Shown one piece after another: positions 24,550 to 44,194 of a stretch of 64,000 nt of DNA. Every line of letters starts with the position of its first letter. The stretch's first letter is position 1. The position numbers and the translations under genes were made by a program. The notes below the pieces were generated by a model, which was given only the letters and a program-made list of their open reading frames with translations, did not search any database and was not told the DNA's origin. Origin of the DNA: Hymenobacter sedentarius (lineage in GTDB: Bacteria; Bacteroidota; Bacteroidia; Cytophagales; Hymenobacteraceae); the NCBI RefSeq assembly GCF_001507645.1, contig NZ_CP013909.1:1302001-1366000 (forward strand), given 5' to 3'.

Positions 24550-25752
24550 ATGACCCATTCCTTTCGTGCCGTGCGTTTGGCCGTACCCTTCTCCAGCCTG
24601 CTGTTGCTGGCCGCCTGCGGCTCCAATAAATCCGCCGACCAAACTTCGGCATCGTCGCCCGCCGCTGCCGATTCCACCCAAACGAAATCTACCGCCATGC
24701 CCACCTCCGCATCCTTTGGCAAAACCAACGATGGCACCGAAGTGCAGCTTTTTACCCTCACCAACGCCAGCGGGGCTAAGGCCACCATTACCAATTTTGG
24801 CGGCACGCTCACCAGCCTCATCGTGCCCGACAAAAACGGCAAGATGGGCGACGTCATCCTCGGCTTCGACAACGTGAGCGGCTACCAGAGCCCCGAGTTC
24901 CTGAAGTCCGGCCCGTACTTCGGCGCTCTGATTGGGCGCTACGGCAACCGCATCAAAGGCGGCAAATTCGCCCTCGACGGCAAGACTTATACTCTGGCTA
25001 CAAACAATGGCCCTAACACCCTGCACGGCGGCAAAGTGGGCTTCGACAAGGTGGTGTGGAAGGCCGAGCCTGGCACCTCGGCCGACGGCCAAACCCTGAA
25101 ATTGAGCTACCTGAGCAAGGACGGCGAAGAAGGCTACCCCGGCAACCTGAACGTGGCAGTGGTGTACACCCTCACCAACGACAACGCCCTCAAAATCGAC
25201 TACACGGCCACAACCGATAAGGCCACGCCCATCAACCTGACCAACCACGCCTACTTCAACCTGAACCACGGCGCCGGCAAGGACATTCTGGGTCACGAAG
25301 TAACCATCCCCGCCGACCGCTACACCGTGGTTGACGCCACCCTGATTCCGACCGGTGAGCTGCGCCCCGTGAAGGGCACGCCCTTCGACTTCACCACGCC
25401 CCACGCCATCGGCGAGCGCATCGCGCAGGTGCCCGGCGGCTATGACCACAACTGGGTGCTGAACAACGCCGCCACGCCGCAACACGCGGCCGCCACGGTG
25501 TATGAGCCCATCACCGGCCGCACGATGGAAGTGACCACCGACGAGCCCGGTATCCAGTTCTACACCGGCAACTTCCTCGACGGTACCCTCAAGGGCAAAG
25601 GCGGCACCGTGTACGGCAAGCACGCCGGCTTCTGCCTCGAAACCCAGCACTTCCCCGACTCGCCCAACCAGCCCAAGTTCCCCAGCACGGTGCTTAAGCC
25701 GGGCGAGACTTTCCACTCCGTGAGCACCTACAAGTTTGGCGTCCGGAAATAG
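24550..25752 (+). CDS. Aldose 1-epimerase (mutarotase), lipoprotein
   Basis: The 400-residue product interconverts alpha and beta anomers of free sugars, here probably arabinose or galactose released by the neighbouring hydrolases. A lipobox LLLLAACG (Cys about 23) and a Ser/Ala linker precede the galactose mutarotase-like beta-sandwich. Expected residues are present: His in NTLHGGKVGFD, His in PINLTNHAYFNL and the catalytic base Glu in GFCLETQHFPDSPNQP. It lies 58 bases after the GH43 gene and ends the first, repeat-free part of the locus. Being a lipoprotein it works in the periplasm or at the surface, unlike cytoplasmic GalM. Confidence 0.94.
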   Translation: MTHSFRAVRLAVPFSSLLLLAACGSNKSADQTSASSPAAADSTQTKSTAMPTSASFGKTNDGTEVQLFTLTNASGAKATITNFGGTLTSLIVPDKNGKMGDVILGFDNVSGYQSPEFLKSGPYFGALIGRYGNRIKGGKFALDGKTYTLATNNGPNTLHGGKVGFDKVVWKAEPGTSADGQTLKLSYLSKDGEEGYPGNLNVAVVYTLTNDNALKIDYTATTDKATPINLTNHAYFNLNHGAGKDILGHEVTIPADRYTVVDATLIPTGELRPVKGTPFDFTTPHAIGERIAQVPGGYDHNWVLNNAATPQHAAATVYEPITGRTMEVTTDEPGIQFYTGNFLDGTLKGKGGTVYGKHAGFCLETQHFPDSPNQPKFPSTVLKPGETFHSVSTYKFGVRK

Positions 25753-25783
25753 GGAAGTAGCAAGCCTATAGAAATATAAGCCC

Positions 25784-25877
25784 GTCATGCCGAGCGTAGC
25801 CGAGGCATCTCGCGTGCAGCAGTAATCAAGCTAGCTCAACGAAGCGGGCGAGATGCTTCGGCTACACTCAGCATGAC
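25784..25877. repeat. Dispersed palindromic repeat
   Basis: Arms of 30 bases (25784-25813 and 25848-25877) pair with three mismatches around a 34-base loop. Core GTCATGCCGAGCGTAGCCGA. It fills the gap between the mutarotase and araB. Confidence 0.92.
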
Positions 25878-25909
25878 AGCCGAAAACTGAAACTTATCTA
25901 TCAATTACT

Positions 25910-27637
25910 GTGGAACAACAAGCTGCCACTCCCGCCTACGTCATCGGCGTTGACTACGGCACGGACTCGGTGCGCGCCGTGCTTATCGATGCCCGCACGG
26001 GCGCCGAAAAGGCCCAGGCCGTGCACCACTACGCGCGCTGGAAAACCCTGCAATACTGCAACCCCGCCCGCAACCAGTTTCGCCAGCACCCGCTCGACTA
26101 CATCGAAGGGCTGGAGGCCGTGGTGCGCCGCGTGGCCCAGCAAGTGCCCGCTGCCGACATTCGGGGCCTGGCCGTGGATACCACTGGCTCAACTCCGGGC
26201 CCAGTAAACGCGCAGGGCGTGGCCCTGGGCTTGCTGCCTGAGTTTGCCGAAAACCCCAACGCCCAGTTCGTGCTCTGGAAAGACCACACCGCCCTGGACG
26301 AGGCCGCCGAAATCAACCACAAAGCCCGCACCTGGGGCGGCGAGGATTACACCAAGTTTGAAGGCGGCATCTACTCCTCGGAGTGGTTCTGGGCTAAAAT
26401 CATGCACGTGCTGCGCGAAGACTCCGCCGTGGCCCAAGCCGCCCACTCCTGGATGGAGCACTGCGACTGGATAACGCTGCTGCTCACCGGCGGCGACCTG
26501 GCCAGCTTCAAGCGCAGCCGCTGCGCCGCCGGCCACAAGGCCATGTGGCACGAGAGCTGGGGCGGCCTGCCCGCCGAAGAGTTTCTCACGCACCTCGAGC
26601 CCAAGCTGGCCGGCCTACGCGCCCGCCTCTTCACCGAAACCTACACCGCCGACGAAGTAGCCGGACGCCTCTCCCAAGAGTGGGCCCAGCGCCTGGGCCT
26701 GACCACCGACACCGTGGTGGCCGTGGGCTCGTTCGATGCGCACGCCGGCGCGGTGGCGGGCGAGATTGAAGCCTACTCGATGGTGAAGGTGATGGGCACT
26801 AGCACCTGCGACATCGTGGTAGCGCCGACCGCCGAAGTGGGCAGCCACCTTGTGGCCGGCATCTGCGGGCAGGTGGATGGCTCCGTGATTCCGGGCATGC
26901 TGGGCCTGGAGGCCGGGCAGTCGGCCTTTGGCGACTTGCTGGCCTGGTTCCGCCAGATTCTGGAGTGGCCCCTGCACAACGTGTTGAGCAGCTCCAAGGT
27001 GCTCACGCCGGAGCTGCAAGCCGCCCTGCGCGATGAAATGAGTGATACGCTGCTCGTGCAGCTGAGCGCGGCCGCCGCGGCTGTCGACCCGGCCGAATCG
27101 CATGTGCTGGCTCTGGACTGGGTGAACGGCCGCCGCACGCCCGACGCCAACCAAGCCCTGAAAGGCGCCATCATGAACCTGACCATGGGCAGCGGCGCCC
27201 CCCAGATTTTCCGGGCGCTGGTGGAGGCCATCTGCTACGGCTCCAAGCAAATCGTGGAACGGTTCGAGCAGGAAGGTATTGCCATCAAGCAGGTTATCGG
27301 CATTGGCGGCGTGGCCAAGAAGTCGCAGTTTGTGATGCAGACTCTGGCCGACGTGCTCAACCGGCCCATCAAAATCGCGGTGTCGGAGCAGGCGCCGGCC
27401 TTGGGCTCGGCCATGTACGCGGCCGTGGCGGCCGGCATCTACCCCGACGTGCTCACGGCCCAGAAAGCCATGGGCAGCGGCTTTGCCGAAACCTACGAGC
27501 CCAACCCCGCCCGCGTGGCCGACTACCAGTCCCGCTACCAGCAATACCAAGCCTTTGGGCAGTTTGTGGAAGCCGCCACCCTGGGCCAGTCCGAGCCGGT
27601 AATGGAACCCGAAACGCCCGCCATCACCACCGCATGA
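25910..27637 (+). CDS. araB: Ribulokinase
   Basis: The enzyme phosphorylates L-ribulose with ATP to L-ribulose 5-phosphate in the cytoplasm, the second step of arabinose breakdown. The 575-residue product matches the family length (E. coli AraB has 566). N-terminal FGGY-kinase motif YVIGVDYGTDSVRAVLIDA, the substrate-region GGIYSSEWFWAKIMH, VGSFDAHAGAVAGEI and MVKVMGTSTCDIV, and the C-terminal QVIGIGGVAKKSQFVMQTLA are all typical. It starts with GTG at 25910; no in-frame ATG is near. The stop overlaps the araD start by four bases, so the two are translationally coupled. Confidence 0.97.
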   Translation: MEQQAATPAYVIGVDYGTDSVRAVLIDARTGAEKAQAVHHYARWKTLQYCNPARNQFRQHPLDYIEGLEAVVRRVAQQVPAADIRGLAVDTTGSTPGPVNAQGVALGLLPEFAENPNAQFVLWKDHTALDEAAEINHKARTWGGEDYTKFEGGIYSSEWFWAKIMHVLREDSAVAQAAHSWMEHCDWITLLLTGGDLASFKRSRCAAGHKAMWHESWGGLPAEEFLTHLEPKLAGLRARLFTETYTADEVAGRLSQEWAQRLGLTTDTVVAVGSFDAHAGAVAGEIEAYSMVKVMGTSTCDIVVAPTAEVGSHLVAGICGQVDGSVIPGMLGLEAGQSAFGDLLAWFRQILEWPLHNVLSSSKVLTPELQAALRDEMSDTLLVQLSAAAAAVDPAESHVLALDWVNGRRTPDANQALKGAIMNLTMGSGAPQIFRALVEAICYGSKQIVERFEQEGIAIKQVIGIGGVAKKSQFVMQTLADVLNRPIKIAVSEQAPALGSAMYAAVAAGIYPDVLTAQKAMGSGFAETYEPNPARVADYQSRYQQYQAFGQFVEAATLGQSEPVMEPETPAITTA

Positions 27638-28335
27638 GCCAGTACCAAGACCTGAAACAGGCGTGCTACGACGCCAACATGCAGCTGCCCAAGCTTGGGC
27701 TGGTGCTCTTCACCTTCGGCAACGCCAGCGTGGTCGACCGGGAGCGGGGCGTGTTTGCTATCAAGCCCAGCGGCGTGCCCTACGACACGCTCAAGGCCGA
27801 GGACATTGTCATTCTCGACTTCGCCAACAACGTGCTGGAAGGGGAGAGGCGGCCTTCGTCAGATACCAAAACCCACGCCGTGCTCTACAGCCACTGGGAG
27901 CACATTGGCGGCATCGTGCACACGCACAGCACTTACGCCACGTCGTGGGCGCAGGCTCAACTCGATATTCCGATTCTGGGCACCACCCACGCCGACCACC
28001 TCACCGCCGACATTCCCTGCGCCCCGCCCATGGACGACGCCATGATAGCCGGCGACTACGAGCACCAAACCGGCTGGCAAATCCTCAACGAGTTCCAGCG
28101 CCGCGGCCTCTCGCCTTCGGAAGTGGAAATGGTGCTGCTGGCCAACCATGCGCCCTTTACCTGGGGCAAAACCGTGGAGAAGGCCGTGTACAATAGTGCA
28201 GTACTCGAAGAAGTAGCCCGCATGGCTTACCTCAGCTGCACGCTGCGCCCCAACGTGCCGCGCCTGAAAGATGCCCTCATTCGCAAGCACTACGAGCGCA
28301 AGCACGGCGTGAATTCCTACTACGGCCAGTCGTGA
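27634..28335 (+). CDS. araD: L-ribulose-5-phosphate 4-epimerase
   Basis: The enzyme converts L-ribulose 5-phosphate to D-xylulose 5-phosphate, which enters the pentose phosphate pathway. The 233-residue class II aldolase-fold product shows the zinc-binding residues H96 and H98 in IVHTHSTYATSW and H172 in LLANHAPFTWGK, close to H95, H97 and H171 of the E. coli enzyme, and SSDTKTHAVLYSHW with the expected Asp. The ATGA overlap with araB couples their translation. The order here is araB-araD-araA, with araA separated by a palindromic repeat and its own operator. Confidence 0.97.
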   Translation: MSQYQDLKQACYDANMQLPKLGLVLFTFGNASVVDRERGVFAIKPSGVPYDTLKAEDIVILDFANNVLEGERRPSSDTKTHAVLYSHWEHIGGIVHTHSTYATSWAQAQLDIPILGTTHADHLTADIPCAPPMDDAMIAGDYEHQTGWQILNEFQRRGLSPSEVEMVLLANHAPFTWGKTVEKAVYNSAVLEEVARMAYLSCTLRPNVPRLKDALIRKHYERKHGVNSYYGQS

Positions 28336-28336
28336 T

Positions 28337-28407
28337 GTAGCGCGGACTTTTAGTCCGCGCCGGAACAACACCTAATGATTTAGGCGCGGACTAAAAGTCC
28401 GCGCTAC
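28337..28407. repeat. Palindromic repeat of the GCGCGGACTTTTAGTCCGCG family
   Basis: Perfect 24-base inverted arms (28337-28360 and 28384-28407) with a 23-base loop; each arm is itself nearly palindromic. It lies directly behind araD and ends 12 bases before the araA operator, so it may also end or process the araBD transcript. Confidence 0.92.
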
Positions 28408-28419
28408 TTTTTGACCAAC

Positions 28420-28439
28420 TTAGATTAACGATTGTGTAA
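28420..28439. promoter_or_regulatory. LacI-type operator at araA (site B)
   Basis: TTAGATTAACGATTGTGTAA: the right half GATTGTGTAA is a full match to the operator half-site, the left half is degenerate. It is 19/20 identical to site C at 39983. It lies 31 bases before the araA ATG, which suggests an independently regulated araA promoter. Confidence 0.7.
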
Positions 28440-28470
28440 GCTTCGGCTTCCCCTAATTCCACCCCAATCC

Positions 28471-29958
28471 ATGATTGATATTTCGCATTACGAAGCCTGG
28501 TTCATCACCGGCAGCCAGCATCTCTACGGCCCCGAAACCCTCGAGCAAGTAGCCCAACACTCGCAGCAGATTGCCGCCGAGCTCGGTACCAAGCTGCCCA
28601 TTAGGATTGTGTACAAGCCGGTGCTCACCGGCCCGCAGGAGATTTACAAACTCATGCAGGAGGCCAATACCACCGAAAACTGCGTGGGCCTGATTGCGTG
28701 GATGCACACCTTCTCGCCGGCCAAAATGTGGATAAATGGCCTGAAGATTCTGCAAAAGCCGCTGGCGCACCTGCACACCCAGTTCAACCGCGACATTCCG
28801 TGGGCCGACATCGACATGGACTTTATGAACACCAACCAATCGGCGCACGGCGACCGGGAGTTTGGCTTCATCGGCACGCGCATGCGGCTCAATCGCAAGG
28901 TAGTAGTAGGCCATTGGCAGAGCGAGGCGGTACATAACAGCCTCAGCATCTGGTCGCGCGTGGCCTCGGCCTGGTCCGACTGGCAGGGTGCCAAGTTCGT
29001 GCGCTTCGGCGACAACATGCGCTACGTAGCCGTGACCGAAGGCGACAAAGTGGAAGCCGAAATCAAATTTGGTTACTCGGTAAACACCTACGGCATCGGC
29101 GATTTGGTGGCGGTTATTAACCAGGTGAGCGACGAGCAGGTGAACGAGCTGCTGAGCACCTACGAGCAGGAATACGAGCTGAGCGACGAGCTGAAAGACG
29201 GCGGCGCGAAGCGCGACAGCTTGCGCGAAGCGGCCCGCATCGAAGCCGGCATGCGCAAGTTTCTGCAGGACACCGGCGCCAAAGGCTTCACCGACACCTT
29301 CGAGGACCTACACGGCATGGCCCAGCTGCCCGGCATCGCCACCCAGCGGCTCATGGCCGAGGGCTACGGCTTTGGCGGCGAGGGCGACTGGAAGACCTCG
29401 GCCCTGGTGCGCGCTATGAAGGTGATGGGCGCCGGCCTGCCCGGCGGCAACTCCTTCATGGAGGACTACACCTACCACTTTGCGCCTGGCAACGAGCAGG
29501 TGCTCGGCTCGCACATGCTCGAAATCTGCCCGACTATTTCGGAAGGCAAGGTGAAAGTGGAAGTGCACCCTCTGGGCATTGGCGGCAAGGCCGACCCGGC
29601 CCGCCTGGTGTTCAACTGCCCCGCCGGCCCGGCCCTGAACGCCACCATCGTGGACCTGGGCAACCGCTTCCGCATGATTGTGAACGAAGTGGAAGCCGTA
29701 GCGCCCGAGCAGGACCTGCCCAAGCTGCCCGTGGCCCGCGTGCTCTGGAAAGTGAAGCCCGACCTAGCCACCGGCGCAGCCGCCTGGATTCTGGCGGGCG
29801 GTGCCCACCACACCGGCTACAGCCAAAACCTGACCGCCGAATACCTGGAAGACTTCGCCGAAATGGCCGGCATCGAGTTCGTGATTATCGACGCCGACAC
29901 CAAACTGCGCACCTTCAAAAACGAGCTGCGCTACAACGAGGTAGCCTTCCGCGGCTAA
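28471..29958 (+). CDS. araA: L-arabinose isomerase
   Basis: AraA converts L-arabinose to L-ribulose, the first cytoplasmic step. The 495-residue product matches the family length (E. coli 500). Manganese-binding residues can be placed as E304 ([15 protein letters not shown]), E331 (FMEDYTYHF), H348 (GSHMLEICP) and H446 or H447 ([10 protein letters not shown]). The N-terminus [18 protein letters not shown] is characteristic. A TTG in the same frame at 28432 lies inside the operator, so ATG 28471 was chosen. Separate control from araBD is suggested by the operator and repeat upstream. Confidence 0.98.
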
Positions 29959-29980
29959 GCCGAACGAATTATAAAAAACG

Positions 29981-30075
29981 GTCATGCTGAGCGCAGCCGA
30001 AGCATCTCGCGTGCAGCAGTAATCCAGATAATTGCAACGAAACGAGCGAGATGCTTCGGCTGCGCTCAGCATGAC
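29981..30075. repeat. Dispersed palindromic repeat, perfect arms
   Basis: Perfect 30-base arms (29981-30010 and 30046-30075; core GTCATGCTGAGCGCAGCCGA) with a 35-base loop, between araA and the GH51 gene. Confidence 0.94.
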
Positions 30076-30120
30076 AACCTGGTAGTCACTGACGCACAAA
30101 TCAATTAATTCCCACCAACC

Positions 30121-32208
30121 ATGACTTTCTCTAATTCCCGATTCTTGCTCAGCGCGGCGGGACTGGCCCTGGCCGGCTTGCTGCCGGGCCACGCCGCCCG
30201 TGCCCAAAGCGCCAGCCCGGCCACCCTCACCGTGCAGGTGCACAAGCCGGGCGCGGCCGTTTCCAAGAACATGTACGGCCTGTTTTTCGAGGACATCAAC
30301 TTCGCGGCCGACGGCGGCTTGTACCCCGAGCTGGTGAAGAACAAGTCGTTTGAAACCGACGACCACCTCATCGGCTGGAAGGCCATTCGGGGCGCCGCCG
30401 GGCTGGAGAGCTACATCATCTCCAGCGACAAGCCCATCAGCAACAGCAACAACCACTTCCTGCGGATGAGCGCCCGGACAGTCGGTCCCGATGCCGGCTT
30501 CGTGAACGAAGGCTTCCGGGGCATGGGCGTAAAGCAGGGCGCCGAGTACACGTTTTCGATTTACGCACGTAAAGGCCCCGGCAGTGTGAGCGGCCTGAAC
30601 GTGACGCTGGAAGAGACGCGCCGGCCGGGCCCGGGCCCCGAAACGCCGCCCTCGGGCCAGGCGTTAGCTCAAGCCCAGGTGATGGGACTCACCAATGATT
30701 GGAAGAAGTACACCGTGGTGATGACGCCTTCGGCCACGGCCTCCCACGCCCGGCTCAAGCTGACGCTGGAAGGCGCCGGCACCGTGGACCTCGACGTGGT
30801 ATCGCTCTTTCCCAAAGACACTTGGATGAAGCGCGAAAACGGCCTGCGGCCCGACCTCGTGCAGCTGCTCAAGGACATGAAGCCCGGCTTCCTGCGCTTT
30901 CCCGGCGGCTGCATTGTGGAGGGTATTACCCTTGACAACCGCTACCAGTGGAAGGAAACCATTGGCGACGTGGCCTCACGCAAGCCCATGATAAACCGCT
31001 GGAACAAGGAGTTCAAGCACCGCTACACGCCCGACTATTACCAGTCGTTTGGCCTGGGCTTCTTCGAGTATTTCCAGCTGTCGGAAGACATTGGCGCCGA
31101 GCCGCTGCCAATTCTTAACGTGGGGATGGCCTGCCAGTTCAACTCGGCCGAGCTTGCGCCTATTACCAGCAGCGCGGCCAAGGGCCCGAACGCAGCCGGC
31201 CAGGGCGACGAGCCTACCCTGGATACATTCATTCAGGACGCCATCGACTTGATTGAGTTTGCCAACGGCCCGGCCAGCAGCCCCTGGGGCGCTAAGCGCG
31301 TGGCCATGGGCCACCCCGCGCCCTTCAACCTCAAGATGATTGGCATTGGCAACGAGCAGTGGGGCCCGCAGTACCTGGAGCGTTACGAGCCGTTTGCCAA
31401 GGCCGTGAAGGCCAAGTACCCGAACATGCAAATCGTGAGCAGCGCCGGCCCAGCGCCCGAAGGCGAGCTGTTCGACAAAGCCACACTGAAGCTGCGCGAG
31501 CTCAAGGCCGAGTTCATCGACGAGCACTACTACGCCAAGCCCGACTGGTTCCGCCAGAACGTGGGCCGCTACGACAACTACCCCCGCACCGGCCCCAAAA
31601 TCTTCGCCGGCGAATATGCCGCCCAGAGCGTGGGCATCGCCAGCGAAAACAACAAGAACAACTGGGACTGCGCCATTTCCGAAGCCGCCTTCATGACCGG
31701 CCTGGAGCGCAACGCGGGCGTGGTGGCCATGGCCTCCTACGCGCCCATGCTGGCCCACGTAGATGCCTGGCAGTGGACGCCAAACATGATTTGGTTCGAT
31801 AACCTGACCTGCTACGGCACGGTGAACTACTACGTGCAGAAGCTCTACGCCCTCAACAAAGGCACCAGCGTGCTGCCCGTGGAGCTGCCCGGCAATGCCA
31901 AAAACGGCACCGATAACCTTTTCGCCAGCGCCGTGGCCGATGCCCCCACTGGCGACGTCATCGTGAAGCTGGTGAACTACTCCACCACGCCCCGCGCCGT
32001 GAAAGTGAACCTGGCCGGGGCCAAGAAAGTGGGCAAAGCCGGCACCGCCTTCGTGATGGCCAGCGACGACCTGAACACCCAAAACAGCATTCAGGAGCCT
32101 AAGAAGCTCACGCCTAAAGAGGAGAAGTTCAGTGTATCCGGTTCCACGGTCAGCTACACGCTGGCGCCAAATTCCTTTACGGTGCTGCGCATTCCGGGCA
32201 AGAAGTAG
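30121..32208 (+). CDS. GH51 alpha-L-arabinofuranosidase
   Basis: The 695-residue exported enzyme (signal peptide ending HAARAQ) removes alpha-L-arabinofuranosyl residues by a retaining mechanism. It begins with the GH51 N-terminal motif MYGLFFEDINFAADGGLYPE, has an inserted carbohydrate-binding-like beta domain (about 110-230), a TIM barrel with acid/base E412 in IGIGNEQWGPQYLERY and nucleophile E498 in IFAGEYAAQS, and a C-terminal beta-sandwich ending in SYTLAPNSFTVLRI. Unlike many GH51 enzymes it is not cytoplasmic and should work in the periplasm on imported arabino-oligosaccharides. It is flanked on both sides by palindromic repeats. Confidence 0.96.
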   Translation: MTFSNSRFLLSAAGLALAGLLPGHAARAQSASPATLTVQVHKPGAAVSKNMYGLFFEDINFAADGGLYPELVKNKSFETDDHLIGWKAIRGAAGLESYIISSDKPISNSNNHFLRMSARTVGPDAGFVNEGFRGMGVKQGAEYTFSIYARKGPGSVSGLNVTLEETRRPGPGPETPPSGQALAQAQVMGLTNDWKKYTVVMTPSATASHARLKLTLEGAGTVDLDVVSLFPKDTWMKRENGLRPDLVQLLKDMKPGFLRFPGGCIVEGITLDNRYQWKETIGDVASRKPMINRWNKEFKHRYTPDYYQSFGLGFFEYFQLSEDIGAEPLPILNVGMACQFNSAELAPITSSAAKGPNAAGQGDEPTLDTFIQDAIDLIEFANGPASSPWGAKRVAMGHPAPFNLKMIGIGNEQWGPQYLERYEPFAKAVKAKYPNMQIVSSAGPAPEGELFDKATLKLRELKAEFIDEHYYAKPDWFRQNVGRYDNYPRTGPKIFAGEYAAQSVGIASENNKNNWDCAISEAAFMTGLERNAGVVAMASYAPMLAHVDAWQWTPNMIWFDNLTCYGTVNYYVQKLYALNKGTSVLPVELPGNAKNGTDNLFASAVADAPTGDVIVKLVNYSTTPRAVKVNLAGAKKVGKAGTAFVMASDDLNTQNSIQEPKKLTPKEEKFSVSGSTVSYTLAPNSFTVLRIPGKK

Positions 32209-32244
32209 GGGCGTAGAGTCCCGCTACCTAGCACGCTAAATGAA

Positions 32245-32352
32245 CGTCATGCTGAGCGCAGTCGAAGCATCTCGCGTGTGGTGGTAATCCTTTCGATTGA
32301 ACGATTGAATTACTGCCCCGAGCGAGATGCTTCGACTGCGCTCAGCATGACG
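32245..32352. repeat. Dispersed palindromic repeat, perfect arms
   Basis: Perfect 31-base arms (32245-32275 and 32322-32352) around a 46-base spacer, between the GH51 and GH27 genes. Core GTCATGCTGAGCGCAGTCGA. Confidence 0.94.
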
Positions 32353-32391
32353 GGCTGGTATTAAAATGGTTATAAGACGCAGCAAGTACCT

Positions 32392-34230
32392 ATGAAACCA
32401 GCCCAACAACTGCTTGCATTGGCGGCTTTCGTAGGAAGCCTTGCTCCGGTGCAGGCCCAGAAAGCCCCCCCTAAAGCGGATTTCCACCAGTGGGCCGCAA
32501 CACCGCCCATGGGCTGGAACAGCTGGGACTGCTACGGCCCCACCGTGACCGAAGCCGAGGTGAAAGCCAACGCCGACTACATGGCCAAAAACCTGAAAAG
32601 CAGCGGCTGGGAATACGTGGTGGTGGACATTCGCTGGTACGTGGGCAACGACACCGCCCACGGCTACAACGAGAAAAACCCCGAGTGGAACCTTGATGCC
32701 TACGGCCGCTTCATCCCGGCCGTGAACCGGTTTCCCTCGGCCGCGGGCGGCCAAGGCTTCCGGCCGCTGGCTGATTACCTGCACGCCAGGGGGCTGAAAT
32801 TCGGCATTCACATCATGCGCGGCGTGCCGGTGGCGGCGGTGCAGCGCAAGCTGCCCATCCTCGGCACCAAGCTCACGGCCACCGACATCTACAGCAAAGA
32901 AGGCCAGGCCCGCTGGCTGCACGACATGTACACGGTGAAAGCCGGGCCCGGCGCGCAGGAATACTACGATTCGCTTTTCAAGCTTTACGCCTCGTGGGGG
33001 CTGGATTTTGTGAAAGTCGACGACCTGTCGGAGCCCTACCATAAGCCGGAAGTGGAGATGATTCGACGAGCCATCGACCGCTCGGGGCGCAAAATTGTGC
33101 TGAGCACTTCGCCGGGCGAAACACCCATTGCCGAAGCCAAGCACGTGGCCGCCAATGCCAACATGTGGCGCACCGTGGGTGACTTCTGGGACAGCTGGGA
33201 GCAGCTCAAGGAGCACTTCGACGTGTGCGAGCGGTGGGCGTCGCACATCGCGCCCGGCGCCTGGCCCGATGCCGACATGCTGCCGTTGGGCCGCCTGGGC
33301 ATCCGCGCCGAGCGGGGCGATGACCGCATGACCCGCTTCACCCGCGACGAGCAATTCACCCTGATGACGCTGTGGAGCATCTTCCGCTCGCCGCTCATGT
33401 TCGGCGGCGACTTGCCCAGCAACGACGCCTTCACCCTGGGCTTGCTCACCAACCAAAACGTGCTGGCTGTGCACCGGCGTAGCACCCACAACCGCCAGCT
33501 GTTCCGCCGCGACAACCTAGTGGCCTGGACGGGCGACGACCCCGCTACCGGCGACAAATTCCTGGCCCTCTTCAATGTCCAGGACCAGGAACTGGCTCCC
33601 GAAACCGAAGCCGCCTGGGCCAGCGGCCCCATTACCCGCCAAACCGCGGGCCAAAGCAAAGCCGCCGACGTCGACATCACCGGCGCTACCAAATTGTACC
33701 TGAACGTGCGCAACGGCGGCGATGACATCGCCTGGGACCACGCCGACTGGCTCAACCCGGTGCTCAGCGGCAGCGGCAAAACCACGCCCCTAAGCACGCT
33801 GCCCTGGAAGTCGGCCACGGCCGGCTGGGGCAAGGCCACCGTCAACAAAAGCGTATCGGGCGCCAGCCTGATGGTGGGAGGGAAGCGGTACGAAACCGGC
33901 ATCGGCACGCACGCCAACTCCATCATCGAGTACGACTTGCCGGCCGGCTACACGCGCTTCTCGGCCACCGTGGGCCTGGACCAGGCCGGCGCGGCGCAGA
34001 ACACCGGCGGCACGCTCAGCTTTCTGGTATTTACCAAGAACCCCTACCGGCCCGCCCCCGCCGATTCGGTGCGCGTGCCAGTGACGCTGGCGGAACTTGG
34101 GCTGGCCAGCGGCGGTAGTATCCAAGACTTGTGGACGGATAAAAACCTGGGACCAATGACGGGCGATTTTGCGCCTTACGTCCGGCGGCACGGCGCTAAG
34201 CTGTACCGCATTGTGAAAGTCAAAAAGTAA
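32392..34230 (+). CDS. GH27 glycosidase with NPCBM domain; candidate beta-L-arabinopyranosidase or alpha-galactosidase
   Basis: The 612-residue exported product (signal peptide ending APVQAQ) has a GH27 TIM barrel starting TPPMGWNSWDCYG (37-49). Nucleophile D210 lies in LDFVKVDDLS and the acid/base in WPDADMLPLG. In alpha-galactosidases the second strand reads IDDCW; here residues 79-82 read D-I-R-W, with Ile in place of the second Asp that contacts the galactose hydroxymethyl group. The same replacement is known from the GH27 beta-L-arabinopyranosidase of Streptomyces avermitilis (recalled, not checked). After a linker, an NPCBM domain follows (about 465-560, GKRYETGIGTHANSIIEYDL). In an arabinose locus the arabinopyranosidase reading is attractive but unproven. 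Confidence 0.88.
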   Translation: MKPAQQLLALAAFVGSLAPVQAQKAPPKADFHQWAATPPMGWNSWDCYGPTVTEAEVKANADYMAKNLKSSGWEYVVVDIRWYVGNDTAHGYNEKNPEWNLDAYGRFIPAVNRFPSAAGGQGFRPLADYLHARGLKFGIHIMRGVPVAAVQRKLPILGTKLTATDIYSKEGQARWLHDMYTVKAGPGAQEYYDSLFKLYASWGLDFVKVDDLSEPYHKPEVEMIRRAIDRSGRKIVLSTSPGETPIAEAKHVAANANMWRTVGDFWDSWEQLKEHFDVCERWASHIAPGAWPDADMLPLGRLGIRAERGDDRMTRFTRDEQFTLMTLWSIFRSPLMFGGDLPSNDAFTLGLLTNQNVLAVHRRSTHNRQLFRRDNLVAWTGDDPATGDKFLALFNVQDQELAPETEAAWASGPITRQTAGQSKAADVDITGATKLYLNVRNGGDDIAWDHADWLNPVLSGSGKTTPLSTLPWKSATAGWGKATVNKSVSGASLMVGGKRYETGIGTHANSIIEYDLPAGYTRFSATVGLDQAGAAQNTGGTLSFLVFTKNPYRPAPADSVRVPVTLAELGLASGGSIQDLWTDKNLGPMTGDFAPYVRRHGAKLYRIVKVKK

Positions 34231-34243
34231 CTCTTAGAACCTT

Positions 34244-34271
34244 GTAGAGACGCGAAGCTTCGCGTCTCTAC
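34244..34271. repeat. Perfect 28-bp palindrome of the GTAGAGACGCG family
   Basis: GTAGAGACGCGAAG followed by its exact complement. It begins 13 bases after the GH27 stop and ends 25 bases before the GH127 start. A longer split version occurs at 58011-58109. Confidence 0.93.
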
Positions 34272-34296
34272 CCCGGATTCATAACTACGGACTGCC

Positions 34297-36342
34297 ATGA
34301 TATCTCCGAAAACTTTCCTGCTGGTGTTGGGCCTGAGCGGCGCGCTGCCCGCCCTGGCCCAACGCGCCGACTACCCCATTCAGGCCGTGCCGTTCACCAA
34401 GGTGAAGCTAACGGATAACTTCTGGCAGCCGCGGCTCAAAACGAATACTACCGTCACCATTCCGGCCTCGTTCCAGCGCTGCGAAGCCACGAATCGGGTA
34501 AAGAATTTCGAGATGGCGGCAGCGCATTCGGGCAAATTCGCCACCACATTTCCCTTTGACGACACCGACATTTACAAGACGCTGGAAGGGGCGGCGTACT
34601 CGCTTAGCCTGTGCCCGGACAAGGAGTTATCGGCCTACATGGATGCGCTGATTGCCAAAGTCGGGGCGGCCCAGGAGCCCGACGGCTACCTCTACACGGC
34701 CCGCACCATCGACCCGGCCCACCCGCACGCCTGGGCCGGCCAGGAACGGTGGGAAAAGGAGCGCGAGTTGAGCCACGAGCTCTACAACTCCGGCCACCTC
34801 TACGAAGCGGCCGTGGCCCACTACCAGGCCACTGGCAAGAAAACCCTGCTCAACATCGCCCTGAAAAACGCCGACCTCGTGTGCTCGGTATTTGGCCCCG
34901 GCAAGCGCGTGGTGGCGCCCGGCCACGAAATCGCGGAAATGGGCCTCGTGAAGCTCTACCGTGTAACCGGCAAGCCCGAATACCTGCAAACGGCCAAGTT
35001 TTTCCTTGATGCGCGCGGCCAGCACAAGGGCTACGACCCCAAGAGCCCAGACCCCTTCCGCAACGGCCAGTACTGGCAGGACGACAAGCCCGTGGTGGCC
35101 CAAAAAGAAGCCGAAGGCCACGCCGTGCGCGCCGAATACCTGTACTCGGCCATGGCCGATGTGGCCGCCCTCACCGGCGACAAGCAGCTGCTGGCTGCCG
35201 TGGATACCATCTGGCAGAACATGGTGAGCAAGAAGTTCTACGTGACTGGCGGCACCGGCGCGGTGCCCGGCGGCGAGCGGTTTGGCCAGAACTACGAGCT
35301 GCCCAACGCCACGGCCTACAACGAAACCTGCGCCTCGGTGGCCGACATCTACTGGAACCAGCGCATGTTCCAGCTGCACGGCGAGGCCAAGTACGCCGAC
35401 ATCATCGAGAAGGTGCTCTACAACGGCCTGCTCTCGGGCGTGGGGCTCGACGGCAAATCGTTCTTCTACTCCAACGCCATGCAGATTAAAAACAGCGCCA
35501 GCTTTGCCCAGACCGAGCCGGCGCGGGCGGGCTGGTTTGAGTGCTCGTGCTGCCCCACCAACCTGGCGCGGCTGTTTCCCGCGCTGCCGGGTTACGTGTA
35601 CGGGCAGAAAGACCGGGACATTTACGTAAACCTCTTCGTGAGCGGCAGCACCGATTTGGCCGTGAAAAACAAGGCCGTACGTCTCACCCAGCAGAACAAT
35701 TACCCCTGGAGCGGCGACCTGAAATTCACCGTGAATCAGGCTTCGACTTCGGATTTTAACCTGCTGGTGCGTATTCCGGGTTGGGCGCGCAACGAGGCTA
35801 TGCCGTCGGATTTGTACCGGTTTGCCCAGCCTTCTGACGCGAAGGTGACCGTTCGGGTAAATGGCAAGGCCGTGGAATATCAGCTGAAAAACGGCTACGC
35901 CGTCCTGGCCCGCAAGTGGAAGAAAGACGACGTAGTAGACGTGCGCCTGCCCATGGACGTGCGCACCGTGGTGGCCCACCCCAACGTGCGCGACAACGTG
36001 GGCAAAGTTGCCCTGCAGCGCGGCCCGGTCATGTACTGCGCCGAGTGGAAGGACAACGAAGGCAAAGCCAGCAACATCATCGTGCCCGCCGGCACCACCT
36101 TCACTACCGTCGAAAAACCCGACCTGCTGAACGGCATCACGGCGCTCACGGCCACCGTGCCCGTGGTGAAAGTCGATGCCGCCACCAACACCATCAGCAC
36201 CGTGCGCCAGACCCTAACGGCCATCCCGTACTACGCCTGGGCCAACCGTGGCAAGGGCGAAATGATGGTCTGGTTTCCGCAGCGCGTGACCGACGTGGAC
36301 CTGGTGACCCGCCAAGCCGAAGAAGTGACGCACGCCAAGTAG
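34297..36342 (+). CDS. GH127 beta-L-arabinofuranosidase
   Basis: The 681-residue exported enzyme (signal peptide ending ALPALAQ) is predicted to cleave beta-L-arabinofuranosides, as in plant hydroxyproline-linked arabino-oligosaccharides and some pectic side chains. The core is an (alpha/alpha)6 barrel. The zinc-cysteine active site of the family is complete: E343 and C345 in AYNETCASV, and C418 and C419 in ECSCCPTNLARLFP, corresponding to E338, C340, C417 (nucleophile) and C418 of Bifidobacterium HypBA1. The beta-sandwich tail includes VALQRGPVMYCAEWKDN. It lies between repeats and next to GH27 and GH36 genes. Confidence 0.95.
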   Translation: MISPKTFLLVLGLSGALPALAQRADYPIQAVPFTKVKLTDNFWQPRLKTNTTVTIPASFQRCEATNRVKNFEMAAAHSGKFATTFPFDDTDIYKTLEGAAYSLSLCPDKELSAYMDALIAKVGAAQEPDGYLYTARTIDPAHPHAWAGQERWEKERELSHELYNSGHLYEAAVAHYQATGKKTLLNIALKNADLVCSVFGPGKRVVAPGHEIAEMGLVKLYRVTGKPEYLQTAKFFLDARGQHKGYDPKSPDPFRNGQYWQDDKPVVAQKEAEGHAVRAEYLYSAMADVAALTGDKQLLAAVDTIWQNMVSKKFYVTGGTGAVPGGERFGQNYELPNATAYNETCASVADIYWNQRMFQLHGEAKYADIIEKVLYNGLLSGVGLDGKSFFYSNAMQIKNSASFAQTEPARAGWFECSCCPTNLARLFPALPGYVYGQKDRDIYVNLFVSGSTDLAVKNKAVRLTQQNNYPWSGDLKFTVNQASTSDFNLLVRIPGWARNEAMPSDLYRFAQPSDAKVTVRVNGKAVEYQLKNGYAVLARKWKKDDVVDVRLPMDVRTVVAHPNVRDNVGKVALQRGPVMYCAEWKDNEGKASNIIVPAGTTFTTVEKPDLLNGITALTATVPVVKVDAATNTISTVRQTLTAIPYYAWANRGKGEMMVWFPQRVTDVDLVTRQAEEVTHAK

Positions 36343-36395
36343 GTCAGCTTCTACAAGTGACTGTGTGTTAGAATAATTAGAATAGCAAAAAAGGC

Positions 36396-36490
36396 CGTCA
36401 TGCCGAGCGCAGCCGAGGCATCTCGCGTGGGGTAGTAATCAGGCTGGCTCAACGAAGCGGGCGAGATGCCTCGGCTGCGCTCGGCATGAA
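36396..36490. repeat. Dispersed palindromic repeat
   Basis: Perfect 29-base arms (36398-36426 and 36461-36489), core GCCGAGCGCAGCCGAGGCAT. The right arm ends 16 bases before the first possible start codon of the GH36 gene. Confidence 0.94.
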
Positions 36491-36505
36491 GTTCCTGCGC
36501 TTTGC

Positions 36506-38734
36506 ATGACGACCTATTCGATAAACCCCCATCCCAAAACCACTCTGCATACCCGCCGGCTTCCTACGTATCACATGCTTCTTTGCTACCTCTGCTGCTT
36601 TCTGTTGCTCTTCACCCGTTTCGTGCCCGCCATGGCGCAAACCACACCTCCCATTGCCATCGAAACCGAACACGTGAGCCTGGTGCTGGCTGTGGGCGAT
36701 AAGCAGCGCATTTTTCAGACTTACCTTGGACCCAAGCTAGCCGCTACCGACCACCAGGTGCTGCCCAACCGCCACGAGGCCTATGTGCCGGCCGGCACCG
36801 ACAACCTGTTTGAGCCTGCCCTGCGCGTGGTGCACACTGATGGCAACCCCTCGCTGGCGCTGGCATTTGCCGACGTGAAAACCAGCAAGCCGGCCGATGG
36901 CGTGACCACAACCACCATCCGCCTGCGCGACCCCAGATACCCGGTAGACGTGCAGCTGCACTTCACAGCTTACTACAAAGAGGACGTCATCAAAACCTGG
37001 ACGGAAATCACGCACCGCGAAAACCAGCCGGTGGTGCTCACCAGCTACGCCTCGGCCATGCTGCACTTCGACGCCCGGCAGTACTGGCTAACCCAGTTCC
37101 ACGGCGATTGGGCCGAGGAAGCCAAGCAGGTGGAAAGCCAGCTCACCAGTGGCATCAAGGTCATTGACACCAAGCTGGGCACCCGCGCCGGCTGGTACCA
37201 GACGCCGAGCTTCTTCCTGGGCCTCGACAAGCCCGCCGAGGAAACCACCGGCGACGTGCTGGCCGGTTCCCTGGCTTGGACCGGCAACTTCCGCCTGGCG
37301 TTTGAACTGGACAATCAGAACTCGCTGCGGATGTCGGCGGGCATCAACCCTTACGCCTCGGAGTATACGCTGCCGGCCAATCAGCCGTTCGTGACGCCGG
37401 AGTTCATCTTCACCTACAGCACCACCGGCAAGGGCCAGGCCTCGCGCAATCTGCACCGCTGGGCCCGCCGCCACGGCGGCACCCTCGACGGCACCCAGCC
37501 ACGCCTCACGCTGCTCAACAACTGGGAAGCCACGTTTTTTGACTTCAACGAAGCCAAGCTCGACCGCCTGATGGGCGACGCCGCTAAGCTCGGTGTTGAC
37601 CTATTCTTGCTCGACGACGGCTGGTTTGGCAACAAGTACCCGCGCAAGGACGACACCCAGGGCCTCGGCGACTGGCAAACCACCAAAAGCAAGCTGCCCA
37701 ACGGCGTGGGCCATCTGGTGAAAACCGCTACCAAGCAAGGCATCAAATTCGGCATCTGGCTGGAGCCCGAAATGGTGAACCCCAAGAGCGAGCTGGCCGA
37801 AAAACATCCCGACTGGCTGCTCAAACTGCCCAACCGCCCCGACGACCTCTACCGCAACCAGCTGGTGCTGGACCTCAACAATCCCAAGGTGCAGGATTTC
37901 GTGTATCGCACCGTGGACGAGCAGCTCAGCCAAGGCGTGGCCTACGTGAAGTGGGACTGCAACCGCATGATTAGCAGCGGCTACTCACAGTACCTGGGCA
38001 AAGACCAGTCGCACCTCTACGTTGACTACGTGCGCGGCCTGTACAAAGTGCTCGAGCGCGTGCGCCAGAAGTACCCGCACCTGCCCATGATGCTCTGCTC
38101 CGGTGGCGGCGCCCGCGCCGAGTACGGGGGGCTGAAATACTTCACCGAATTCTGGGCCTCCGACAACACCGATGCCTTCGAGCGCATCTTCATTCAGTGG
38201 GGCTTCTCGCAATTTTTCCCCTCGAACACCATCGCCAGCCACGTCACCAACTGGAACCGCCAGCACACCCTGAAATTCCGCACCGACGTGGCCATGATGG
38301 GCAAGTTGGGCTATGACATCGAGGTGGAGAAAATGACCAGTGACGAGCTCAAATTCAGCCAGCAGGCCGTGAAGGAATACAAGCGCCTGAGCCCCATTAT
38401 CTGGCAGGGCGACCTGTTCCGCCTGCGCTCGCCCTACGAGGGCAACCAAGCCTCGCTGCTGTACGTGGACGAAGCCCAGCGCCAGGCCGTGCTCTTCGGC
38501 TACAACCTGCACACCCGTTTCCTCGAAACCGTGCTGCCCGTAAAGCTCCAGGGCCTCGACCCTGCCAAACGCTACAAGCTCACGGAAATCAACCTCATGC
38601 CCGGCCAGAAGTCTGAGCTGGCTGCCAACGGCCAAACCTACTCCGGCGACTACCTGATGAAGGTCGGCGTGGTGCTGAGCGACCGCGAAGCCAAGCCCCT
38701 CACCAGCCACGTCTTTGAGTTGACGGCGGAGTAA
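36506..38734 (+). CDS. GH36 alpha-galactosidase
   Basis: The product has up to 742 residues. It hydrolyses alpha-D-galactosides (possibly beta-L-arabinopyranosides, which are stereochemically similar). An N-terminal beta-supersandwich is followed by the TIM barrel with LFLLDDGWFG, GIWLEPEMVNPKSELAEKHP, nucleophile D484 in YVKWDCNR, and the acid/base region EFWASDNTDAFER (D553-D556). The signal peptide ends FVPAMAQ. Either the ATG at 36506 (arginine-containing n-region) or at 36575 could be the start; the first is given because the second leaves no basic residue before the hydrophobic core. It is the last plus-strand enzyme before a convergent boundary. Confidence 0.93.
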   Translation: MTTYSINPHPKTTLHTRRLPTYHMLLCYLCCFLLLFTRFVPAMAQTTPPIAIETEHVSLVLAVGDKQRIFQTYLGPKLAATDHQVLPNRHEAYVPAGTDNLFEPALRVVHTDGNPSLALAFADVKTSKPADGVTTTTIRLRDPRYPVDVQLHFTAYYKEDVIKTWTEITHRENQPVVLTSYASAMLHFDARQYWLTQFHGDWAEEAKQVESQLTSGIKVIDTKLGTRAGWYQTPSFFLGLDKPAEETTGDVLAGSLAWTGNFRLAFELDNQNSLRMSAGINPYASEYTLPANQPFVTPEFIFTYSTTGKGQASRNLHRWARRHGGTLDGTQPRLTLLNNWEATFFDFNEAKLDRLMGDAAKLGVDLFLLDDGWFGNKYPRKDDTQGLGDWQTTKSKLPNGVGHLVKTATKQGIKFGIWLEPEMVNPKSELAEKHPDWLLKLPNRPDDLYRNQLVLDLNNPKVQDFVYRTVDEQLSQGVAYVKWDCNRMISSGYSQYLGKDQSHLYVDYVRGLYKVLERVRQKYPHLPMMLCSGGGARAEYGGLKYFTEFWASDNTDAFERIFIQWGFSQFFPSNTIASHVTNWNRQHTLKFRTDVAMMGKLGYDIEVEKMTSDELKFSQQAVKEYKRLSPIIWQGDLFRLRSPYEGNQASLLYVDEAQRQAVLFGYNLHTRFLETVLPVKLQGLDPAKRYKLTEINLMPGQKSELAANGQTYSGDYLMKVGVVLSDREAKPLTSHVFELTAE

Positions 38735-38748
38735 GTTTTAAAAGGCTC

Positions 38749-38945
38749 CATGCAGCGCTCAGCGAAGCATCTCGCGTGAGGAACCTCACCCCCGGCCCCT
38801 CTCCCAAGGAGAGGGGAGCCACGGCACAAGCTTTAGCTCAATTCTTAAAAAAACAGAATGCCCCGGCTCAATTGAGCCGGGGCTTTTTACTTGCAGAATT
38901 TGTCAGGCTCCCCTCTCCGCAGGAGAGGGGCCGGGGGTGAGGTGC
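38749..38945. repeat. Composite palindromic element, copy 2
   Basis: Inverse-complement relative of the element at 8376-8576: it starts with a half repeat (GCGAAGCATCTCGCG), then CCTCACCCCCGGCCCCTCTC, GGGGAGCCACGGCACAAGC, a central terminator hairpin, and closes with complementary arms. Like copy 1 it separates converging genes (GH36 plus, GH43 minus). Confidence 0.85.
38860..38888. terminator. Terminator inside composite element copy 2
   Basis: A perfect 24-bp palindrome GCCCCGGCTCAA plus complement (38860-38883) is followed by five T residues. It ends the GH36 transcript; A residues further left could support weak action on the minus strand. Confidence 0.85.
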
Positions 38946-38947
38946 CT

Positions 38948-39979
38948 TTACTTCGCTGCCTTCACACCTTCCGTCGTCATCACCACACGCTTCATGGTGC
39001 CGTCCTTGTTGTAATACAGGTTGTCGATACACACCGAACGGCGGAAGCTGCCGCCGTCGGGGTTGATACTGCCGTTGTGGTAGATGAAGTACGACTGGCC
39101 TTTGAAGTCGATGATAGCCTGGTGGTTGGTGTTGGAATTGCCAGCTATTTCATTCAAAATTCCCTTGTATTCCCACGGCCCTTCGAGGCTGCGGCTCATG
39201 GCGTACACGATTTTCTCGGGGAATTGTGAGGCGTAGCTCAAGTAGTACCAGCCGTTGTGCTCATGCACCCACGGCGCTTCGGTAAACTGCGGCAATTTCA
39301 CGGTTTGGATGGGGCCGTCGAGCTCGGTCATGTTCGGTTTGAGCTTGGCGTAGTAGCAGGTCACGTTGCCCCAAAAAAGGTACGCTTGGCCCTTGCTGTC
39401 GATGAAAACCGTTGGGTCGATGTCGTCCCACGGGTGCTTGTCGTCCGTGGTCATGTTGTTGGCAATGAGCGCCGAGCCGCGGGCGTCTTTGAATGGCCCG
39501 GTCGGGCTATCGGCCACGGCCACCCCAATGGACTTGCCCGGAATGGTGCCGTGCTCTACGGCCGCGTACCAGTAGAACTTGCCGTTGCGCGCAATCACCT
39601 GCGAGGCCCAGGCATCGCCCTTAGCCCAAGCAAAGTCCAACACCTTGAGCGGCACCGGGTGCTCGGTCCAGTTCACCATGTCCGTCGAGGAAAAGCACAA
39701 CCACTCGTTCATAACGTAGCGCTCCTGACGGGCGGGGGCTTCGTCGTGGCCGGTGTAGAGGTACACCGTGCCCTTCTGCACCATGGCCGCGGGGTCGGCG
39801 GTGTACTTGCTTTTGATGATGGGGTTGCCGCCCACCGTCGCGCCCAGCGTAGCGGGGGCAGCCGGCACGGTTTGCGCCACCGCTGCCGATGCTGACAGGG
39901 CGAGGGCCAGCAAGCCGGGCAGCCGAAGGCCGAGTGCCGAGCGAATAGACAGTTTGTGAGTAATCTGAGGAGCCTGCAT
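38948..39979 (-). CDS. GH43 family beta-xylosidase/arabinofuranosidase-like enzyme
   Basis: The 343-residue exported protein (signal peptide ending SAAVAQ, residue 36) is a single GH43 domain. Candidate residues are base D62 in YTADPAAMV, the modulating Asp in WDDIDPTVFID and the acid Glu in FTEAPWVHEHNGWYYLSYA. This motif set differs from the other three GH43 proteins of the locus and resembles the arabinofuranosidase/xylosidase group. It is transcribed against the GH36 gene. Its ATG is directly preceded by a LacI-type operator (site C) and, before that, by the terminator of the transaldolase fusion, leaving little room for a separate promoter. Confidence 0.9.
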   Translation of the reverse strand: MQAPQITHKLSIRSALGLRLPGLLALALSASAAVAQTVPAAPATLGATVGGNPIIKSKYTADPAAMVQKGTVYLYTGHDEAPARQERYVMNEWLCFSSTDMVNWTEHPVPLKVLDFAWAKGDAWASQVIARNGKFYWYAAVEHGTIPGKSIGVAVADSPTGPFKDARGSALIANNMTTDDKHPWDDIDPTVFIDSKGQAYLFWGNVTCYYAKLKPNMTELDGPIQTVKLPQFTEAPWVHEHNGWYYLSYASQFPEKIVYAMSRSLEGPWEYKGILNEIAGNSNTNHQAIIDFKGQSYFIYHNGSINPDGGSFRRSVCIDNLYYNKDGTMKRVVMTTEGVKAAK

Positions 39980-39982
39980 ACG

Positions 39983-40002
39983 TTAGATTATCGATTGTGT
40001 AA
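39983..40002. promoter_or_regulatory. LacI-type operator at the minus-strand GH43 gene (site C)
   Basis: TTAGATTATCGATTGTGTAA differs from site B at araA in a single base. It lies four bases from the GH43 ATG (39979), so a bound regulator would block entry into the gene itself. Confidence 0.7.
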
Positions 40003-40010
40003 ATGGAGCT

Positions 40011-40048
40011 AAAAAAGGCGGCTGAGCATGAAGCCCGCCGCCTTTTTT
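40011..40048 (-). terminator. Terminator after the transaldolase/isomerase fusion gene
   Basis: AAAAAAGGCGGC (40011-40022) pairs perfectly with GCCGCCTTTTTT (40037-40048). It lies just downstream of the stop at 40059 on the minus strand and has a six-base T run in that direction. Confidence 0.9.
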
Positions 40049-40058
40049 CAATGGGATA

Positions 40059-42881: not shown

Positions 42882-42904
42882 AGAATTTCAGTTGGTAAGT
42901 GCGC

Positions 42905-42936
42905 CAAAGGTCCGGAAAGAACCGGTTTGTTTTCAA
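42905..42936 (-). promoter_or_regulatory. Promoter of the transaldolase/isomerase fusion gene
   Basis: Read on the minus strand, TTG (42936-42934) is followed after exactly 21 bases by GACCTTTG (42912-42905), matching TAnnTTTG in all but the first base. The spacing equals that at susC and at 9891. Confidence 0.6.
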
Positions 42937-42974
42937 TTGCTATTGGTGGAATTGCCGTGTCGAAGGAAAAAAGC

Positions 42975-43101
42975 CCGTCATGCCGGGTGTAGCGGAGCAT
43001 CTCGCTCGCGCCTTTTGTCATGCTGACGAAGGAAGCATCTTATCACGTTCGGGCGACTCGTTCAGCGGGGATAAGATGCTTCGCTGCGCTCTGCATGACA
43101 G
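42975..43101. repeat. Compound dispersed palindromic repeat
   Basis: A partial outer arm (CGTCATGCCGGGTGTAGCGG) is followed by a second unit in which GTCATGC...AGCATCTTATC pairs with GATAAGATGCTTCGCTGCGC...GCATGAC near 43070-43099. It appears to be two overlapping or nested copies of the family, like the one at 51853. Confidence 0.85.
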
Positions 43102-43117
43102 GCGATTATCTATGATG

Positions 43118-44189: not shown

Positions 44190-44194
44190 TATGC

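Follow-up and report, generated by a model that had tools for sequence, protein, structure and literature searches.

The arabinose locus and its palindromes

Here we report the analysis of palindromic repeats that lie between the genes of an arabinose locus in Hymenobacter sedentarius (GCF_001507645.1, contig NZ_CP013909.1, positions 1302001-1366000; genome of 4.87 Mb in a single contig). The whole stretch of 64,000 nt is called the window below, and coordinates are counted within it. By Pfam, the locus consists of two halves on the plus strand: the sus half (16725-25752), with susC, susD, two GH43 genes and a mutarotase gene, and the catabolic half (25910-38734), with araB, araD, araA, GH51, GH27, GH127 and GH36. 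The domains found between 21.6 and 38.7 kb are successively GH43, GH43, aldose epimerase, FGGY kinase (araB), class II aldolase (araD) and AraA, then a GH51-type arabinofuranosidase, a Melibiase_2 protein (GH27-type), GH127 and GH36. Proteins of the susC and susD types are located upstream of the GH43 pair, and on the minus strand GH43, tal-pgi and GH43 occupy 38.9-44.2 kb, with a GH43 gene at 43118-44200. Genes were called by a simple codon-usage caller, which places some starts too late. The araA gene has an identity of 85-91% in twelve relatives, all of them Hymenobacter.

From the mutarotase gene to GH36, a palindrome is present in all six codirectional gaps of at least 15 bp and in the convergent GH36/GH43 gap. 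Four of these seven gaps have a CGTC-type inverted pair, two have a GTAG palindrome, and the convergent one has a CCTC-type pair that encloses a terminator-like hairpin. Repeat and inverted-repeat scans recover the four CGTC-type pairs (arms of about 30 nt, spacers of 34-46 nt), the GTAGCGCGGACT pair, the GTAGAGACGCGAAG palindrome and the CCTC pair. The CGTC-type pairs lie in the mutarotase/araB gap (25784-25877, arms 25784-25813 and 25848-25877, 90% complementary, 31 nt past the stop codon), the araA/GH51 gap (29981-30075, 30-nt arms, 100% complementary, 22 nt past the stop codon), the GH51/GH27 gap (32246-32351, the longest palindrome of the set, 37 nt past the stop codon, with an RNA fold of -82.8 kcal/mol) and the GH127/GH36 gap (36397-36489, 29-nt arms, 100% complementary, 54 nt past the stop codon). 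The GTAG-type palindrome pair of the araD/araA gap (28337-28407) has 25-nt arms with 100% complementarity, begins 1 nt past the araD stop codon and is followed by a T tract, and the single GTAG-type palindrome of the GH27/GH127 gap (34244-34271) stands 13 nt past its stop codon. In the convergent GH36/GH43 gap the CCTC-type pair (38779-38947), which we take to be a common bacterial repeat, adjoins a degenerate CGTC arm (about 38749-38778, by eye) and holds in its loop a bidirectional terminator-like hairpin (38860-38883). Upstream of tal-pgi there is a degenerate CGTC-type pair (about 43014-43105), with a further degenerate arm within 42964-42997. An earlier sequence-only reading of this DNA had proposed palindromes of at least three families in all these places, and the scans find them there, the one upstream of tal-pgi in degenerate form and the families numbering at least four. 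It was also right that the araB/araD junction is free of repeats; the two genes overlap by 4 bases. The terminator that it placed in the tal-pgi/GH43 gap is seen in part: an inverted repeat (40011-40048, minus strand) with an A/T tract at either end looks terminator-like by eye, but its loop is 14 nt and it is absent from the terminator scan output.

By RNA folding, the four CGTC pairs reach -63 to -83 kcal/mol with z-scores of -9 to -14, the araD GTAG pair -54 kcal/mol (z -13.7) and the GH27 palindrome -21 kcal/mol (z -7.7); single GTAG units have -18 and -21 kcal/mol, with z of -5.5 and -7.7. Elsewhere in the window, members of the named families are found in the gaps 8325-8602, 51814-52046, 55852-56023 and 57968-58154, and another palindrome in the gap 50056-50268. 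Some elements are nested. In the gap 51814-52046 an outer palindrome starting GTCATTGCGAGG encloses a CGTC-type pair, nesting is also seen at 8325-8602 and at 38735-38947, where the terminator-like hairpin lies inside the CCTC pair, and in another Hymenobacter locus (L086) a CCTC pair sits in the loop of a CGTC pair, in the gap between the g22746 homologue and GH27.

Distribution of the repeats in the genome

The families are dispersed over the genome. The CGTC arm has 224 genome-wide matches (at most 3 mismatches), with 110 and 114 on the two strands, and its reversed-pattern control has 0. In a 464-kb sample, made up of the window and 20 sampled stretches of the same genome, the two GTAG-type palindromes have 5 and 14 matches, and one shuffle of the sample gives zero matches to any family, GTAG types included. 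Only 3 of 100 arms in this sample are inside called genes. An unbiased count of 12-mers over the 322 gaps of this sample leads to the CGTC family, about 65 of the 70 most widespread words being pieces of CGTC elements (by reading).

Among gaps of at least 15 bp in the 400 kb beyond the window, a named family stands in 18 of 189 that are codirectional, in 13 of 47 that are convergent and in 1 of 46 that are divergent. At the locus all six codirectional gaps are occupied (6/6 vs 18/189), an unusual density. A run of at least seven occupied gaps anywhere has P of about 0.0005 (0.05% of simulated draws, under class rates, an estimated 3368 gaps and independence), which overstates the local excess, since there is mild clustering of occupied gaps in the rest of the sample as well (6 adjacent pairs vs 2.7 expected, P 0.027). 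The repeat counts per 20 kb elsewhere are not overdispersed, with mean 1.6 and variance 1.6. As for the sus half, the four gaps of the window have no dispersed repeat, which is unremarkable in one genome because the base rate is 9.5%. The contrast between the two halves is clear only across the genus.

Occupancy and turnover in Hymenobacter

We then present an overall view of the locus in 67 genomes. The set was taken from araA matches in 87 other genomes, of which 57 loci were used (mostly by identity), plus the loci of the 12 relatives, minus 3 duplicates, with the window included; the loci were annotated by tblastn with the window proteins, and gaps of 15-900 bp were counted. The family patterns were built from the window sequence, so the families of other species are under-detected, equally in both halves. 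On the whole, a named family stands in 94 of the 279 gaps of the catabolic half and in 1 of the 153 gaps of the sus half. Where both halves are present (49 genomes), 57 of 209 catabolic-half gaps are occupied against 1 of 153 in the sus half, and the repeats are catabolic-only in 29 genomes, sus-only in 0, in both halves in 1 and in neither in 19. For the remaining codirectional gaps of these loci the count with a named family is 5 of 68, and for slices inside araB, as an internal control, it is 0 of 268. The non-random pattern noted from the window alone is thus supported, and more strongly by the 67 genomes than inside the window.

The occupants change between species. The same junction has CGTC, GTAG or CCTC elements in different species, or unrelated palindromes; in the relative G089, for example, the GH127/GH36 junction holds a different CGTC composite. 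On a FastTree tree of araB, araD and araA, the named families need at least 9 state changes at mutarotase/araB, 21 at araD/araA and 11 after araA, and 0, 1, 0 and 0 at the four main sus junctions. Between araB and araD, where the window has no repeat, 10 of 67 loci hold a named element belonging to either of two families, and the two genes remain neighbours there. Related species thus gain and lose different palindromes at fixed catabolic junctions and almost never at the junctions of the transport genes. This points to a tolerance or selection that is specific to the boundary.

Some details of single loci are worth recording. In L082 and L003 araB ends in a GTAG-type palindrome, across which its frame seems to stay open as far as the junction with araD, and in L089 and L097 a GTAG-type palindrome is seen near this boundary (by position, frame aside). 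In the mutarotase/araB gaps of L006, L007, L009, L152 and others, the palindromes are inverted arrays of 7-8-nt words which differ from species to species; one such word is dispersed in genome G037 with 49 matches (at most 3 mismatches), the reversed pattern, likewise periodic, having 18.

Identity profiles were used to look for exchange of gene cassettes. For G089 the 200-bp profile stays at about 94% up to 34.9 kb, falls to about 88% up to 40 kb and returns to about 94% beyond; the change begins inside GH127, away from the repeats, two junctions in the diverged tract hold other elements, and the alignment has no identity step at the five shared repeats. Cassette exchange is rejected. For G033 the suspicion came from a 99% protein identity of araA, and the profile, at about 88% before araD, is modestly higher from there on, at about 92%, with no sharp patch.

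The sus half and the hairpin after susD

The sequence-only reading had described the gaps from susC to the mutarotase gene as free of repeats. This is right for dispersed repeats, but the susD/GH43 gap holds a conserved hairpin (21517-21550, plus strand) outside the dispersed families, which is conserved and covarying in 30 Hymenobacter loci. These 30, with gaps of 30-150 bp, are taken from 32, one gap of length 0 and one of 222 bp being omitted. The best 46-nt window of the gap folds at -24 to -38 kcal/mol in the 30 loci (given without shuffle control), and the consensus stem covaries, one pair being A-T in 20, G-T in 5, C-G in 3 and G-C in 1, another T-A in 20 and C-G in 8. In the window, the 46-nt hairpin segment has z of -4.05 and the whole gap only -0.9. 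Among 30 loci without a named family in this gap, 23 gaps have z <= -3. The hairpin may be an attenuator or a 3' stabiliser between susCD and the glycosidases; there is no mention of it in the available text of two Bacteroides transcriptome papers (PMC7366714, PMC10994844).

SusD loci were also collected more widely, 49 in all: 19 belong to this genome, and 30 were retained from the 59 matches that four relatives gave. Their susC/susD gaps have 0 named repeats (11 of the 49 gaps being shorter than 15 bp), and CGTC elements are found in the gap between susD and the next gene in 8 of 49.

Structure of the gaps beyond the named families

Folding z was also computed for gaps of 30-330 bp regardless of the family. 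Gaps at z <= -3 number 43/63 at mutarotase/araB, 36/63 at araD/araA, 43/62 after araA, 21/32 after GH51 and 12/15 after GH127, and only 9/22 after GH27. In the sus half they number 2/40 at susC/susD, 0/16 at GH43/GH43 and 8/28 at GH43/mutarotase; the susD/GH43 gap is structured in 24/31 because of its own hairpin. The other codirectional gaps of the loci give 17/56. Codirectional gaps of this genome that lie beyond the window are at z <= -3 in 56 of 145 cases, and with this background the excess of any hairpin is only modest, about 1.5 to 2-fold.

Other operons

Persistent occupancy is not special to the arabinose genes. Two further runs of three occupied gaps exist in the sample, in a nuo operon and in a transketolase/aminotransferase operon, and their junctions are occupied in 13/30, 9/30, 10/26 and 17/26 genomes (own included). 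For nuo, 30 loci were kept of 60 genomes with a match; for transketolase, 26 of 30 were kept and four distant paralogues omitted. Four control junctions, repeat-free here, are occupied in 1/13, 0/30, 3/29 and 1/30 genomes, and hold other, unnamed palindromes in 6/13, 3/30, 5/29 and 1/30; at one of them 17 of 30 loci and at another 1 of 30 were dropped as not codirectional. The four nuo and transketolase junctions were picked as occupied here, and closely related genomes have inherited copies in common. State changes are therefore a fairer measure: 4 to 6 per nuo or transketolase junction vs 0 to 3 per control junction. In both operons the occupancy persists much as it does at the arabinose locus, and at the controls it does not.

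Comparison with known REPs

Dispersed palindromes in inverted pairs, lying after stop codons and rare between divergent genes, are what the available text of PMC3733652 describes as repetitive extragenic palindromic (REP) sequences. The CGTC-tagged REPs of that report (Di Nocera et al. 2013), with Bacteroidetes among the phyla named and no mention of Hymenobacter in the main text, resemble the CGTC-type elements in several respects. Both have the CGTC/TGTC end tag, of which CCTC is a further accepted form; here the left arms at 25783, 32245 and 36396 start with CGTC, and the arm at 29980 starts with GGTC and has a TGTC partner. The complementary AT at the unit start is present (ATGC..GCAT in the CGTC arms), the elements are extragenic inverted dimers between codirectional and convergent genes, and in neither case is a dedicated transposase seen, PF01797 being the class searched here. 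They appear to differ in the unit, which in those REPs forms a short hairpin (8-9 bp, loop of 4-5 nt), while an arm here does not seem to fold stably alone and takes an 8-6-8 layout only with G.A pairs counted (by eye). The tail also differs, being CTCGC here and not CCA. The CGTC-type elements are probably CGTC-REPs, judging by their sequence; because most but not all tails in the available text fit CCA, this assignment stops short of proof.

The GTAG-type palindromes are like the GTAG-tagged REPs that go with REP-associated tyrosine transposases (RAYTs), as far as these are described in the available text of PMC3733652 and PMC3686654, in having a GTAG tag followed by a stable palindrome and in being dispersed. 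A search with PF01797 in 120 genomes of the genus gives a match in 83. This genome has a single match (L081), and a GTAG-type palindrome stands on both sides of it, unlike those systems in that it is a third one (GCGAGTT..AACTCGC), of a different family from the two of the locus. According to the available part of PMC3686654, abundant REPs without their own RAYT are known in other genomes, so the unmatched RAYT is compatible with membership of the GTAG-REPs. CGTC-type sequence near PF01797 genes is found in 2 of 31 loci read (L168 and L169) and in none of the other 29, these being L081 and 30 kept loci.

Palindromes between arabinose genes are also known outside Hymenobacter. In E. coli K-12 the araA-araD gap of 284 bp consists of an array of REPs, and the enterobacterial consensus matches it three times. 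The parallel is close in position, both being intercistronic in an arabinose operon, but the E. coli gap has unrelated sequence, a tandem array and a different gene order.

Interpretation

The palindromes are dispersed, in local excess at this locus, partial to certain boundaries throughout the genus and replaced by other families over time. We consider it somewhat more probable than its rivals together that they are REP-like elements which settle again and again behind stop codons wherever a boundary permits it, are purged where a boundary is under constraint, and act as long hairpins in the mRNA. The CGTC- and GTAG-type palindromes and the CCTC-type pair would insert, or get copied, recurrently just past stop codons. 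They would persist at boundaries that suffer no harm, or draw a slight benefit, from a hairpin in the mRNA, and purifying selection would exclude them from boundaries that are otherwise constrained, such as susC-susD, the susD/GH43 gap with its conserved hairpin, and gaps holding promoters. The repeats are predicted to be transcribed, to fold as hairpins of about 30 bp in the mRNA and to slow 3' exonucleases. Those within 15 nt of a stop codon (araD, 1 nt; GH27, 13 nt) may affect ribosome release; REPs at such distances stall ribosomes in E. coli, according to the available text of PMC12306157. For the four CGTC pairs, 22-54 nt past their stops, a barrier to decay would be the more natural effect, and the mRNA-stability role put forward in the sequence-only reading is plausible from the modelled folding of the five inverted pairs at -54 to -83 kcal/mol.

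Several results weigh against this account. The catabolic junctions are about 3.5 times as occupied as the average codirectional gap here, which exceeds the obvious prediction of plain tolerance. Mutarotase/araB gaps without a named family are still structured in 30 of 49 cases (z <= -3), which looks like selection for a hairpin, with the limit that hairpins of any kind are enriched only about 1.5 to 2-fold, and after GH27 (9/22) not at all. A lone CGTC arm folds no better than shuffles (z of 0.28, 0.91 and 1.07), so that the hairpin is made by the pair and not by the arm. Finally, no mobiliser was found for the CGTC arms, PF01797 being the only transposase class searched.

It is conceivable, as a tentative extension, that REP occupancy is an inherited property of the boundary, with junctions refilled by the hairpin of any family, susC-susD staying empty, and the hairpin tuning the ratios of cistrons in metabolic operons. 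Close to this is an explanation by selection for the hairpin itself, which would protect or uncouple cistrons for unequal amounts of kinase, epimerase, isomerase and glycosidases, whichever family lands being kept. The different families at one junction, the structured gaps at mutarotase/araB and after araA when compared with other codirectional gaps of the same loci, the REP array of E. coli and the protective 3' structures documented in E. coli operons (available text of PMC5927463) all speak for it. However, by the inverted-repeat criterion there is no palindrome at araD/araA in 33 of 67 genomes and at mutarotase/araB in 39 of 64, so the hairpin is dispensable; the any-hairpin background in this genome is 56 of 145; and outside Hymenobacter (L013-L080) a strong palindrome is found in only 2 of 45 ara or mutarotase gaps. 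On the sequence evidence we regard it as doubtful. The sus half is accounted for no less well by tolerance at boundaries free of other constraints, to which we give the higher weight.

A preference of the mobiliser for some DNA feature, such as existing hairpins or a replication-strand signal, would make occupancy a matter of insertion rate and not of fitness. The nested elements (a CCTC pair in the loop of a CGTC pair, a terminator-like hairpin in a CCTC pair) and an occupancy that tracks the junction in three operons fit this idea, but no shared target sequence was identified, and the gap with the hairpin after susD is not favoured: of its 31 examples that reach 15 bp, 1 has a named family. 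We find it improbable. Termination, the other role offered by the sequence-only reading, fares worse, and it is very unlikely that the repeats are terminators dividing the locus into single-gene units. The araD repeat, with its T tract directly after the stem (28383-28405), is the only one in a codirectional gap to qualify in the terminator scan; the second strong site (38860-38883) belongs to the convergent gap, where it forms the nested palindrome. On the coding strand the scan lists no site within the GH27 palindrome or any of the four CGTC pairs. Promoter-like matches are no more than in shuffles (4 vs a mean of 3.9, one of them in the GH127/GH36 gap). Least credible of all is the gene-by-gene assembly that the same reading suggested, each gene arriving with its own flanking repeats: GH27, GH36 and GH127 do vary in presence and order between species and G033 has its modest rise from araD onward, but it is left unsupported because the elements turn over at fixed boundaries, between the same neighbours (araB and araD among them), while the genes stay put, adjacent junctions often carry unrelated families, G089 has no identity step at shared repeats, and the nuo operon has the same pattern.

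No published description of this recurrent junction occupancy in Hymenobacter was found in a search that most subscription papers lay outside, nor is there one in the available text of PMC3686654 and PMC5927463. It has long been disputed whether REPs are parasites that their hosts tolerate or elements that serve a purpose in the mRNA. With unrelated families at the same junctions, the contrast between the sus and catabolic halves, and two further operons, Hymenobacter makes this dispute directly testable.

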